NCBI GenBank assembly: GCA_903644075.1
Contig: CAHJXH010000010.1
Location: forward strand, 1 to 38,408
Source of the DNA: Sphingobacteriaceae bacterium
GTDB lineage: Bacteria; Bacteroidota; Bacteroidia; Sphingobacteriales; Sphingobacteriaceae
DNA: 38,408 nt
Direction of reading: 5' to 3'
Part shown: piece by piece, positions 13,332 through 17,286 of the stretch
How positions within the stretch are numbered: the first letter of the stretch is position 1
Layout of the letters: the number at the start of each line of letters is the position of its first letter
The notes under the pieces: generated by a model
Seen by the model: the letters and a program-made list of their open reading frames with translations, nothing else
Database searches by the model: none
What the model was told of the DNA's origin: nothing
Program-made: the position numbers and the translations under genes

Positions 13332-13359
13332 AAATTTGCTAATTATTTTAGCAAATTTA
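13332..13359 (-). promoter_or_regulatory. hairpin plus -7 box between response regulator and radical SAM gene
   Basis: AAATTTGCTAA (13332-13342) and TTAGCAAATTT (13348-13358) form a perfect 11-bp inverted repeat with a 5-nt loop. On the minus strand TAAATTTG (13359-13352), a full -7 match, lies in the same sequence and overlaps the regulator stop codon. The site could be a weak terminator, a dyad operator, or both; no T run follows the stem. Confidence 0.5.
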
Positions 13360-13995
13360 TAATTGTATTAAATTATTTTTTATGGCGTAAAGTACCAGGC
13401 CAACCCGGCTTTTAATCTGCAGTTTTTCAAACAGTTGGTCGCGATAGCCATCTACCGTGCGGGCGCTTATGCACATCTGGTCAGCAATTTCTTTGTAGGT
13501 AAGCTCTGTTCCGGCTAGTCTTAAAAATTCTATTTCGCGGCTGTTTAACTTGATATGCTCTTTCTGATTCAGGTTTTTAATCAGATGATCTGTAACGAAG
13601 GACGGGTAGTATAGCTCGTTATTAGCAACCGTTTTTAGGGCTTGCTCAAACTCGTGCGGTTCCGAATCTTTAAGCAGGTAACCATGTACACCCAGCCTCA
13701 CCATTTTCAATACCTTATCGGCATCCTGAAACATGGAGAGAATGATGATCTTAACTTCGGGGTTGTTTTTTTTGAGCCATTGGGTAGTGCCAAAACCATC
13801 CATCTCGGGCATATTAATATCAAGCAATATAACATCGGGTTTGTTGCCCGCAGTGATATGGCTGATCATTTCCTGTCCATGGGCTGCTTCGAACAAGATA
13901 TTATAACCAGAAAACTGACCAATTAGCGAGGCTATGCCACTTCTAAAAAGACGGTGGTCATCAACTAATGCTATTTGAGTAATCTGCGTCGGCAT
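13357..13995 (-). CDS. LuxR/NarL-type response regulator
   Basis: A 212-residue DNA-binding regulator. The receiver domain (about residues 5-125) has the acidic pair D12-D13, the phosphorylation site D59 (VILLDINMPEMDGF) and the later Lys (LLKDSEP). The C-terminal HTH (about 148-208) has LNSREIEFLRL, TYKEIADQMCISARTVDGYR and the LuxR/NarL spacing. It starts inside the kinase gene with a 35-nt overlap, so the two are translationally coupled and almost certainly cognate. Target genes cannot be read from the sequence. Confidence 0.95.
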   Translation of the reverse strand: MPTQITQIALVDDHRLFRSGIASLIGQFSGYNILFEAAHGQEMISHITAGNKPDVILLDINMPEMDGFGTTQWLKKNNPEVKIIILSMFQDADKVLKMVRLGVHGYLLKDSEPHEFEQALKTVANNELYYPSFVTDHLIKNLNQKEHIKLNSREIEFLRLAGTELTYKEIADQMCISARTVDGYRDQLFEKLQIKSRVGLVLYAIKNNLIQL

Positions 13996-14785
13996 ACATG
14001 TTTTCTAAAAGCGGATCGAGTGCGATCTTAACCGAACATCCATTTCCTGGTGAGCTTTCAATAGTGGCAGTACCCCCAATAAGGGCAGCCCTGTTTTGCA
14101 GGTTTTTTAAACCCGACCCACGATGTTCATCCAATATACTAGTCGGAAACCCAACCCCATCATCCGCGATGGTCAAATTAAATACTTTTGGCGAATATAG
14201 CAACTCAATTTTTAGCTGCTGTGCATTGGCATGTTTAAGTGCATTATTTACCGTTTCCTGGAATATCCGGAACAATACCAGTTCGTTTTTCTCACCCAAT
14301 GAAAATGGATCTCCCTCAACATATAAATCGGCTTTTACCAAGCCACTCTTGTTAATGCGTTCGAGTTCGAGAGTTATCGTTTTTTCGAGCCCTGCCGCTT
14401 TAATAGTATCAAAGCTCATGCTCTTGGAAAGATCACGCAGATCATTGATAGCTTGCGATAACAATTCGCGGCTTTCTGTAATCTTGGCCTGTGTTTGTTC
14501 GGGATCTTTGCTAACCACGCCTAAAGAAAGCTTTACAAAAGAGAGTACCTGGGTAATATTGTCGTGTATCTCACGACTTACATAAGTAAGCGTTTGATCC
14601 TGGACTTCAATCTGCGTTTTTAAAATTTCCTGCTTAAGGTTCTGCTCAATAGCTACAACCTTTTGCTGATGCTCAAATGTTTTACGTTGATAGATAAATA
14701 AAATAACAACAATGAACAACACAAAGAGTATCAGGATACCAGTTGCTACCGTTAATAAAATCCAAAAATCGAACCCGTCTGACAC
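13961..14785 (-). CDS. histidine kinase with one membrane segment and no evident sensor domain
   Basis: A 274-residue HisKA_3-type kinase. A single hydrophobic segment (about 9-31) leads through a short coiled coil (35-65) into the phospho-acceptor region with H74 (REIHDNI). The ATPase domain has FQETVNNALKHA (N box, about 175-186), ADDGVGFP (207-214) and GSGLKNLQNRA (223-233). Only about eight residues precede the membrane segment, so there is no extracellular sensor; input probably comes through the 7-TM protein encoded next to it. The start is GTG and overlaps the upstream stop by one base (TAGTG). Confidence 0.93.
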   Translation of the reverse strand: MSDGFDFWILLTVATGILILFVLFIVVILFIYQRKTFEHQQKVVAIEQNLKQEILKTQIEVQDQTLTYVSREIHDNITQVLSFVKLSLGVVSKDPEQTQAKITESRELLSQAINDLRDLSKSMSFDTIKAAGLEKTITLELERINKSGLVKADLYVEGDPFSLGEKNELVLFRIFQETVNNALKHANAQQLKIELLYSPKVFNLTIADDGVGFPTSILDEHRGSGLKNLQNRAALIGGTATIESSPGNGCSVKIALDPLLENMYADADYSNSIS

Positions 14786-15510
14786 TAATTGATTGCTTTT
14801 TTTGAAACAGCGACACTTTTAATTAATGCCACAAAAATGCATAAATATAAAAGGATATTAGTTAAATACAACAACGGTTTTACCGCGGCATATTGTTGTG
14901 ATGCGTACATGTGAGCTTTGTTCTGAGCGCTGAACATAACCGTTAGCGGTACCTTGTGCAACTCGGAGTAGTTGAACAGGTATATTTCAGACAGGTGGAA
15001 TAAAATGCTGAAGCATGAATAAAAGAGAATTGCCGCAGCCACCATAAGTACAAAAACGCTCAATTTTTTGTATTTACCTATTTGATCAAAGATATTGACA
15101 ATGTAAGCAATAGCCCAGATTATTAACAAAACCCCCTTAGTTACAACAACATAATCTAATAGTACTTTAGCTTGTAACGGAGTGAGCTTAATAAAGAAAT
15201 ATAAATAACAAATGACGAAGCCGAAAAATATAGCTATACTGGCTTTTATTGTTTTTTGAAAAAATAGATAGGTAATATTATAATAAAAAAACCAGGCAAG
15301 GCAGGCATATTCAAAGGGGTTGAAGAAGAAAAAAACACCCAAATTATTTCTAAACTTCACCTTAAAATAATAGGCAACACTTTCCTCTACCAAGTTAATT
15401 AAAAGAACCAAAGCAATTGGGTACATAATAGTACCCAATCGCTTTGTAAACAATAATAATAACCCTAATAAGGCATCTATTATTAGAATTACCCAATAAG
15501 CATACGTCAT
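14785..15510 (-). CDS. uncharacterised seven-segment membrane protein, putative signal receptor
   Basis: A 241-residue protein that is hydrophobic over most of its length, with about seven membrane segments (near residues 3-21, 27-45, 62-82, 88-108, 122-142, 152-172 and 212-232) and aromatic-rich loops (FFFFNPFEYACLAWFFYY). I know of no named domain. It is fused translationally to the kinase gene (1-nt overlap) and follows the CPPxC protein gene by 12 nt. That arrangement suggests it senses something for the otherwise sensorless kinase. This role is inference from context only. Confidence 0.75.
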   Translation of the reverse strand: MTYAYWVILIIDALLGLLLLFTKRLGTIMYPIALVLLINLVEESVAYYFKVKFRNNLGVFFFFNPFEYACLAWFFYYNITYLFFQKTIKASIAIFFGFVICYLYFFIKLTPLQAKVLLDYVVVTKGVLLIIWAIAYIVNIFDQIGKYKKLSVFVLMVAAAILFYSCFSILFHLSEIYLFNYSELHKVPLTVMFSAQNKAHMYASQQYAAVKPLLYLTNILLYLCIFVALIKSVAVSKKAIN

Positions 15511-15522
15511 TCAATAATAAAA

Positions 15523-15888
15523 TTAGATTAATGCGCCACCACCATTAGGCTCACAATCGGGTGGGCATGTGCCTGTTTCATCGTAAACTTCAGTATCAGC
15601 TTCGCCGCGCACAATGCTTTTGCTTTGAGCATCTGCACCAATTGCTACAAGCGTATGGCCTACTGGTAAACCAACTGCTTTAATTGTTGGGTCGCTCAAT
15701 GCCACATGAAGTTTAACGTAATGACAATCCGGTTGATCGATGATTTTTCTTAAATGATCTGCGCTGATTTTAAATGAGTGAATGTGATTATTATCATCAC
15801 ATTTCGTTTTGTAATCAGCAATGATTTTGTGGGCGTGGCTCAAATTAATTTTTGCGCCAACAATTGGAGGTGTTTTACCGTCTGACAT
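15523..15888 (-). CDS. small protein with C-terminal CPPxC motif, signalling cassette
   Basis: A 121-residue soluble protein without signal peptide or membrane segment. It has a pair-rich central fold (ISADHLRKIIDQPDCHYVKL, then a VGHTLVAIGAD stretch) and ends with C108-P-P-D-C112 followed by EPNGGGALI. From memory, Bacteroidota encode uncharacterised proteins of this size with a similar layout and a CPPxC(P) end; I cannot name a domain. First gene of the cassette with the 7-TM protein, kinase and regulator. It could be a secreted signal precursor, a redox or metal sensor, or the partner of the 7-TM protein. The leader is A/T-rich (AAACAAAAC before the ATG), with no clear promoter box. Confidence 0.7.
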   Translation of the reverse strand: MSDGKTPPIVGAKINLSHAHKIIADYKTKCDDNNHIHSFKISADHLRKIIDQPDCHYVKLHVALSDPTIKAVGLPVGHTLVAIGADAQSKSIVRGEADTEVYDETGTCPPDCEPNGGGALI

Positions 15889-16050: not shown

Positions 16051-16083
16051 AAAATAAAAAAATACCGTGTTTTAACGGTATTT
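16051..16083 (-). terminator. minus-strand terminator upstream of the signalling cassette
   Basis: Read on the minus strand, a 9-bp stem AAATACCGT / ACGGTATTT (16083-16075 with 16068-16060, 6-nt loop) is followed by a T-rich tail (TTTTATTTTTT). There is no minus-strand gene immediately before it; the next one upstream on that strand is the LUD gene ending at 17289. The rest of 15889-16179 holds a small TTCCG-TCAA-CGGAA hairpin (16004-16017) and no gene. Confidence 0.65.
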
Positions 16084-16179: not shown

Positions 16180-17286
16180 ATGCGCCAAATGCTTCAGAAT
16201 TTACTAAGTAAGCCAATCATCAGGCTGTCAGACAAATACTCATCAAATCCAAATCAAAAAAGGGTTTTTAGCGCATTGTCTGCATTGCAAAAAACCATAC
16301 TCTCCAACCCTGGTAAACGCGGTTTAATCATTCCGTTTGATAGTAAAGGAGGAAAATTTGTGGTACTATCAGACCAACACAAAGGCGCGCGTGATGATGC
16401 GGATGATTTCGCCCTGGCCGAAAATAATTACCTGGCCGCATTGGATTATTACAACCAAAACAACTTTACCTACATTAACCTGGGCGATAGTGAAGAGCTA
16501 TGGGAAAATTTGTTTTTAACCGTTAAGCATCATAACAAAGCCACCTTCGAGAAAGAAAAACTATTTCTGGACCGAAATGCTTTTGTAAAAATTTTCGGCA
16601 ATCACGATTTGTATTGGGATAATGATCCGCTGGCTCCGGTAAGCCTGTACCAGATCTATGGTAAGTCCATCAATATTTACGAAGGCATAATTCTGCAGAC
16701 TACCATTAAAGGCAAACCACTCAACATCTACATGACCCATGGCCACCAGGGCGATTTGCAGAGCGATGGTAACTGGTTTAGCAAATGGTTTGTTTCAAAT
16801 GTATGGGCGCCGGTGCAATCGTATTTAAAGATCAATCCCAATACACCGGCCAATAACGATGACCTGAAGACTGCCCATAACCAGATGATGTACGAGTGGA
16901 GTGCTAAACAACAAAATACCGTGTTAATTACCGGGCATACCCATCAACCGGTATTTCAATCATTAACACACATCGAAAGCTTGTATATCCAACGGGCGCG
17001 GGCAAAGAAAGCTAATGACATAGCGGCTATAAACCAATTGGAGGCAGAGATTACCAAACGCCATTTAAAGAACGACAGTTCGCTAAACTTTACAGGTTAT
17101 CGCCCAACGTATTTTAACAGCGGCTGTTGTTGTTTTGATGATGGTGATATTACGGGGATAGAGATAGCAGATGGTTTTATCCGCCTGATAAAATGGGAGT
17201 ATGACAAGGATAAGAATAGTGCACGCGAAGTATTGGAAGAGCGCGATTTGGAAGCTTTATTAAATGAAATGGAAGCTAAGGCTTAA
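16180..17286 (+). CDS. calcineurin-like metallophosphoesterase
   Basis: A 368-residue enzyme with the full set of metallophosphoesterase motifs: LSDQHKG (D-x-H, about residue 64), NLGDSEE (GD, about 101), FGNHDLYW (GNHD, about 139), MTHGHQGD (about 186) and ITGHTHQPVF (GHTH, about 251). It hydrolyses phosphate esters; the substrate is not evident. No signal peptide, so cytoplasmic. Two early Met codons (1 and 4) are possible starts. Its stop is 2 nt from the stop of the converging LUD gene, with no terminator between them. Confidence 0.9.
   Translation: MRQMLQNLLSKPIIRLSDKYSSNPNQKRVFSALSALQKTILSNPGKRGLIIPFDSKGGKFVVLSDQHKGARDDADDFALAENNYLAALDYYNQNNFTYINLGDSEELWENLFLTVKHHNKATFEKEKLFLDRNAFVKIFGNHDLYWDNDPLAPVSLYQIYGKSINIYEGIILQTTIKGKPLNIYMTHGHQGDLQSDGNWFSKWFVSNVWAPVQSYLKINPNTPANNDDLKTAHNQMMYEWSAKQQNTVLITGHTHQPVFQSLTHIESLYIQRARAKKANDIAAINQLEAEITKRHLKNDSSLNFTGYRPTYFNSGCCCFDDGDITGIEIADGFIRLIKWEYDKDKNSAREVLEERDLEALLNEMEAKA

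Follow-up and report, generated by a model that had tools for sequence, protein, structure and literature searches.

In the UhpBC-UhpA system a membrane protein serves as the sensor of a NarL-type two-component pair, a likeness to the locus described here; UhpC is transporter-like and UhpB has a multi-helix domain of its own, which sets that system apart. In Staphylococcus aureus SaePQRS, the lipoprotein SaeP and the membrane protein SaeQ are induced by phosphorylated SaeR and together bind the sensorless kinase SaeS, turning it into a phosphatase (PMC4388633), while in Bacillus subtilis LiaFSR the accessory membrane inhibitor LiaF does a comparable job on LiaS (PMC3543457). Intramembrane-sensing histidine kinases are defined by two helices with a linker of fewer than 25 residues (PMC4388633). 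Here we report a four-gene cassette from a Sphingobacteriaceae bacterium that, on the best reading of its architecture, would work like SaePQRS and LiaFSR without being a member of either, SaePQRS being its closest working analogue.

The cassette in the window

The stretch of DNA analysed (the window; 38,408 nt) is a contig of a 4.67-Mb assembly. It carries, all on the minus strand and with spacings of +12, -1 and -35 nt, genes for a small protein (SP), a seven-helix membrane protein (7TM), a histidine kinase and a response regulator, in that order; all four reading frames lie where the initial annotation had placed them. SP (121 aa; 15523..15888) has no signal peptide and ends in the tail VYDETGT-CPPDC-EPNGGGALI, with C108-P-P-D-C112, and comparison with homologues delimits residues 101-121 (15523..15588, minus strand) as the conserved part. 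The membrane protein 7TM has 241 aa (14785..15510). The kinase (274 aa, GTG start; 13961..14785) consists of one N-terminal helix followed by HisKA_3 and HATPase_c domains, and the NarL/FixJ-type regulator (212 aa; 13357..13995) of a receiver and a GerE/LuxR helix-turn-helix with the recognition helix ISARTVDGYRDQLFEK. Pfam cut-offs were passed for HisKA_3 and HATPase_c in the former and for Response_reg and GerE in the latter, and the H-box in the kinase and the DINMP motif were read from the sequences; kinase and regulator together show both defining features of the NarL/FixJ two-component class with a HisKA_3 kinase. The closest named relative at the locus is Mucilaginibacter polytrichastri (L021), with a 7TM 72% identical and the same four genes in the same order.

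SP and 7TM matched zero Pfam or NCBIfam families at E<=1 and no family in PADLOC or the PDB, in keeping with the earlier statement that neither has a nameable domain. Two overlapping profiles matched the fragilysin pro-region in the PDB (E 0.02-0.045), but a third did not; this match was attributed to chance, as were the other PDB profile matches. The system is nowhere described in the literature consulted, mostly openly accessible papers.

Like SaePQRS, the cassette comprises a small accessory protein, a multi-helix membrane protein, a kinase without a sensor domain and a regulator. SaeP is a lipoprotein, and so is the accessory protein of some cassettes; the Sae regulator induces its accessory genes, and the same is predicted here. 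The two differ in that no sequence relation to the Sae proteins was found for SP or 7TM and neither matches the SaeP or SaeQ family, in that the cassette SP is mostly leaderless and its kinase has one helix against two in Sae, and in the cassette's NarL-type regulator and HisKA_3 kinase. With LiaFSR the cassette shares an accessory membrane protein, a kinase without an extracellular sensor and a regulator (PMC3543457), and LiaS is of the same broad kinase type, but the cassette contains no LiaF match and the LiaS model gives 80 bits where its cut-off is 450. The UhpB model reaches 91 bits on the cassette kinase against a cut-off of 408. To our knowledge, no small protein with a Pro-Pro tail belongs to LiaFSR.

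Recurrence of the operon across Bacteroidota

Pairwise searches detected SP in 14 and 7TM in 5 of 251 Sphingobacteriaceae genomes; the membrane proteins of SP loci are often too diverged for pairwise detection. At all 13 SP loci outside the window, a gene for a protein of 6-7 helices and a one-helix kinase adjoin SP (at L028 and L033 the 7TM or SP gene was masked by overlapping reading frames and was recovered on inspection), and a NarL-type regulator also lies beside SP where the sequence reached far enough. A profile built from 15 SPs found the family in 47 of 395 Bacteroidota genomes, representing 25 of 170 genera. Among 40 further loci obtained with this profile, nearly all have the same four-gene order, with 7TM, kinase and regulator genes directly downstream of SP; the apparent exceptions are mostly gene-calling overlaps, and the GC-rich, distant L105 stays doubtful. 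The search was also run in reverse, with a profile of 42 7TM proteins that matched 50 of 247 genomes. At 40 further loci chosen by 7TM alone, a kinase adjoins in 34, an SP-like gene lies upstream in 31, and all four kinds of gene are present in 26. Outside both sets, a Spirosoma oryzicola plasmid (NZ_CP089539.1) has two hypothetical proteins followed by a histidine kinase and a response regulator, the first protein ending in ...VFDFTHVCPPQCDEESPL, with CPPQC.

Searches from either side thus confirm that the SP and 7TM families co-occur beside kinases. The initial annotation had read the four genes as one coupled unit, and the same gene order is seen again across the phylum, so more often than chance would allow; its further suggestion of an undescribed receptor system is sustained to the extent that no characterised family accounts for SP or 7TM and the linkage is kept in relatives.

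Several loci depart from the plan. L029, L030, L034 and L087 have two or three tandem, diverged 7TM genes ahead of one kinase, which suggests several inputs into a single kinase, and L022 carries two SPs. A 7TM gene stands without SP, kinase or regulator beside an apparent gldC at L148 and L153 (two genomes of one genus), and at L178, L174 and L179 SP-7TM pairs occur with no adjoining kinase detected. The window's own genome holds a second complete cassette, L110 (G000 contig C135, 1802-4524), whose regulator has a recognition helix different from that of the window.

The kinase and its membrane partner

Kinases from 49 cassettes were compared. In 47 of them there is just one hydrophobic segment, which begins near residue 13 at the median, and the median position of the phospho-acceptor box (H-box) is residue 77. 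With one helix and no periplasmic domain it is sensorless, as had been proposed from the window alone, and since it has no sensor domain a partner must supply the input. Cassette kinases thereby share with the intramembrane-sensing type the want of an extracytoplasmic sensor domain, but not the pair of helices joined by a short linker.

The seven helices of 7TM derive from family-averaged hydropathy and a poor AF2 model. Positive charge in loops 1 and 3 and at the C-terminus predicts an N-out/C-in orientation. Conserved positions include N55, N56, 63 (mostly Y), E67, Y164 and 176 (mostly N), and the polar ones lie mostly at or near the predicted outer end. From two-sequence alignments, AF2 gave a pLDDT of 34 for SP and 54 for 7TM, and Foldseek with this poor 7TM model returned no match at E<=0.001.

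Seven helices, an N-out/C-in plan and coupling to signalling domains are also found in 7TMR-DISM proteins (PF07695), and the cassette could be viewed as a split 7TMR-DISM kinase, with 7TM as a stand-alone relative of that domain and SP taking the place of its extracellular part. 7TMR-DISM_7TM is the sole Pfam family matched by more than one 7TM member (3 of 42, best E 4.5e-4). These matches are weak, however, the window 7TM itself has none, and hhalign of the 7TM family against an alignment of real 7TMR-DISM domains gave a probability of 2% with the alignment out of register. Profile-profile comparison thus lends no support, the cassette uses separate polypeptides, and we rejected 7TM as a 7TMR-DISM member; the split-kinase reading is very improbable.

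Even less weight attaches to Agr-like processing, whereby 7TM would cleave or export SP and the mature peptide would be sensed elsewhere. The gene next to a 6-7TM gene and a kinase does encode a small protein whose conserved C-terminus contains cysteine, but the 7TM alignment contains no conserved His/Cys/Ser catalytic set, nor the catalytic His/Cys pair of the Agr processing peptidase; the conserved columns hold mainly N, N, Y, E, G, Y and N. The sensorless cassette kinase offers no receptor domain for a product, whereas an Agr-like receptor kinase brings its own membrane sensor, and agrBDCA differs in gene order and families.

The 7TM gene contains, towards its 5' end, a 16-bp hairpin (15409..15446, minus strand) that the two nearest relatives keep. 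Among the window, L021 and L022 three of its pairs changed on both sides and 97.8% of cells are paired, a value that 67 of 500 shuffles of the three sequences also reach, so that it does not stand clearly above the control. Hairpins with z<-3 occur in the 5' part of 18% of 103 7TM genes against 2-4% in the controls (kinase, regulator and other membrane genes, and 7TM 3' ends), percentages that ignore relatedness. The hairpin may possibly be a differential-expression element.

Tail and compartment of the small protein

The 15 nearest SPs all have C108, P109, P110 and C112, and their consensus is V/I-Y-D/E-x4-C-P-P-x-C. PP, CP or a close variant occurs within the last 25 residues in 58 of 60 profile-found SPs, a count that is partly circular in that the profile itself includes the tail. 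SPs defined by position, as small proteins encoded upstream of a 7TM gene, provide a cleaner test: 28 of 32 have a PP or CP tail, against 25 of 704 other proteins at the same loci. Two later SPs outside both sets keep it as well, as CPPYGNC in L241 and as the CPPQC of Spirosoma. The cysteines are less constant. Among the 60, CPPxC is found in 33 and CPxxC in 9, and 15 have PP without the second or any cysteine; in Flavobacterium-type tails (PCPPxxDPxSPLN or PSPPYGD) cysteines are replaced and prolines kept. The CPPxC tail first noted in the window SP is thus present there, but in relatives its second cysteine or both are replaced, and what is invariant in SP is a Pro-Pro or Cys-Pro tail in which cysteines are optional.

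This bears on the view of SP as a thiol redox or metal sensor, in which C55, C108 and C112, through a disulfide or a bound metal or haem, would signal to 7TM and the kinase. The CPPxC of the nearest homologues is consistent with such a role, as is a third cysteine, equivalent to C55, that is invariant in SP subfamily A5, and other proteins bind haem or metal through CP motifs. Because cysteines are optional, however, redox switching is not how SPs work in general, and tails that miss one cysteine or both fit poorly with disulfide formation or metal binding as a general role; leaderless and exported SPs, moreover, have the same tail. We regard this explanation as improbable.

Most SPs, that of the window included, have no signal peptide. 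By simple sequence rules rather than a trained predictor, about 10 are lipoproteins and 9 start with a hydrophobic anchor, about 19 in total. The SP of L110 is a lipoprotein that begins MKTLKLIPFLALAVLMISAC... and ends in CPPPAKC plus ten residues. A profile made only of leaderless SPs finds the lipoprotein SPs of L079, L090 and L097 at E 1e-14 to 1e-10, which makes lipoprotein and leaderless SPs homologues. In a tree of 7TM from 86 cassettes, which has many long branches, the leaderless state changes 12 times, or at least 5 times when only well-supported branches are counted. Two Flavobacterium-type loci, L090 (4622-5380, 6068-6418) and L097 (5494-6243, 6940-7290), each encode two SPs, one leaderless and with no cysteine in its tail, the other a lipoprotein whose tail has CPP.

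With about 19 SPs tethered by lipid or a membrane anchor, at least some members of the family probably act in the periplasm; an SP that stays in the cytosol would be unable to dock at the periplasmic face. SP might be a ligand, a tethered or released peptide agonist whose PP tail activates 7TM from outside and lets the cell sense SP export, the state of its envelope or neighbouring cells. The conserved extreme C-terminus, the outward position of most conserved polar residues of 7TM and the periplasm-facing SPs, as called from their N-termini, are consistent with this. Anchored forms cannot diffuse, however, the majority of SPs have no export signal, and the tail is conserved and not hypervariable, unlike a specificity-determining pheromone. 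A ligand role is unlikely overall. The signal role first suggested for SP is unlikely in the form of a freely diffusible molecule wherever a lipid or a helix anchors the protein; a tethered ligand is conceivable.

The upstream palindrome and a proposed mechanism

A perfect palindrome, ATACCGTTAAAACACGGTAT (16062..16081), lies about 183 nt upstream of SP in the intergenic region shared with a divergent metallophosphoesterase gene (16180-17286), and homologous sites in six related cassettes make it a candidate operator. Ten genomes were searched for the pattern ACCGTnAAAACACGGT with one mismatch allowed, the reversed pattern serving as control. Near-exact sites numbered 24, in 8 of the 10 genomes, against 7 for the control, and 7 of the 24 are at most 200 nt upstream of an SP gene, where about 0.002 are expected by chance (hand arithmetic, taking 200 nt for each of some 15 SP operons in roughly 46 Mb of sequence). 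Four of these seven helped to define the motif; those in G155, G014 and G095 are independent, and the G095 site exposed a complete further cassette whose SP the SP searches had missed. Several Mucilaginibacter-like genomes keep the metallophosphoesterase gene in synteny with the cassette, but the palindrome is tied to SP because that gene is absent in G155 and G001.

In the searched genomes, the other copies share no common target gene beyond SP and the syntenic neighbour. Exact copies of the core in the window's genome, L229 (G000:C69:3463) and L233 (G000:C81:8394), precede the genes for a MerR-type regulator and a 90-aa protein, respectively, which are possibly regulon members and possibly chance. 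A terminator or attenuator was considered and rejected: the window has a T-run, and its relatives have none.

When the regulators of six palindrome cassettes were compared, a common recognition-helix motif emerged, RT[V/I]DGYRDQLF; most other cassettes have RTVEGHR. L021, the nearest relative, has an identical recognition helix, yet no recognisable palindrome. The presence of the palindrome in seven related cassettes, most with the common helix, suggests that the cassette is autoregulated, and from this pairing of site and helix we infer that the regulator binds the palindrome.

Based on these observations, we propose with moderate confidence a three-component receptor, made of 7TM, the sensorless kinase and the regulator, with an autoregulated accessory SP that tunes it. 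A membrane receptor complex would be assembled from separate polypeptides, in which 7TM would be the sensing and transducing subunit and would couple inside the membrane to the one helix of the kinase. The kinase would phosphorylate the NarL-type regulator, which would bind the palindrome upstream of SP and so control its own operon. The C-terminal Pro-Pro (Cys-Pro-Pro-x-Cys) tail of SP may dock on the complex of 7TM and kinase, and the docked protein may reset or tune it, as SaePQ does for SaeS. Physical contacts between SP, 7TM and kinase are presumed in this scheme, as is an effect of SP that would be negative rather than positive.

SP had been offered as a signal, a redox sensor or a modulator. 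Modulator is the best of the three, favoured by the upstream palindrome; a general redox sensor fares poorly for the missing cysteines. A bolder extension, which we hold only tentatively, is an unnamed, Bacteroidota-wide class of seven-helix receptors with separate sensorless kinases, gated by the Pro-Pro tail of a partner that acts as tethered ligand or plug and evolves between leaderless, lipidated and anchored forms. Were the tail such a tethered ligand, we know of no like gating principle in other bacterial two-component systems.

What appears to emerge is a widespread and hitherto undescribed bacterial receptor family: two protein families without a name and an operon that recurs in about one-eighth to one-fifth of the sampled Bacteroidota genomes. 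Likely candidates can now be named for the sensing subunit (7TM), the modulator (SP) and the operator of one subgroup, and the inputs of many orphan Bacteroidota two-component systems become testable.
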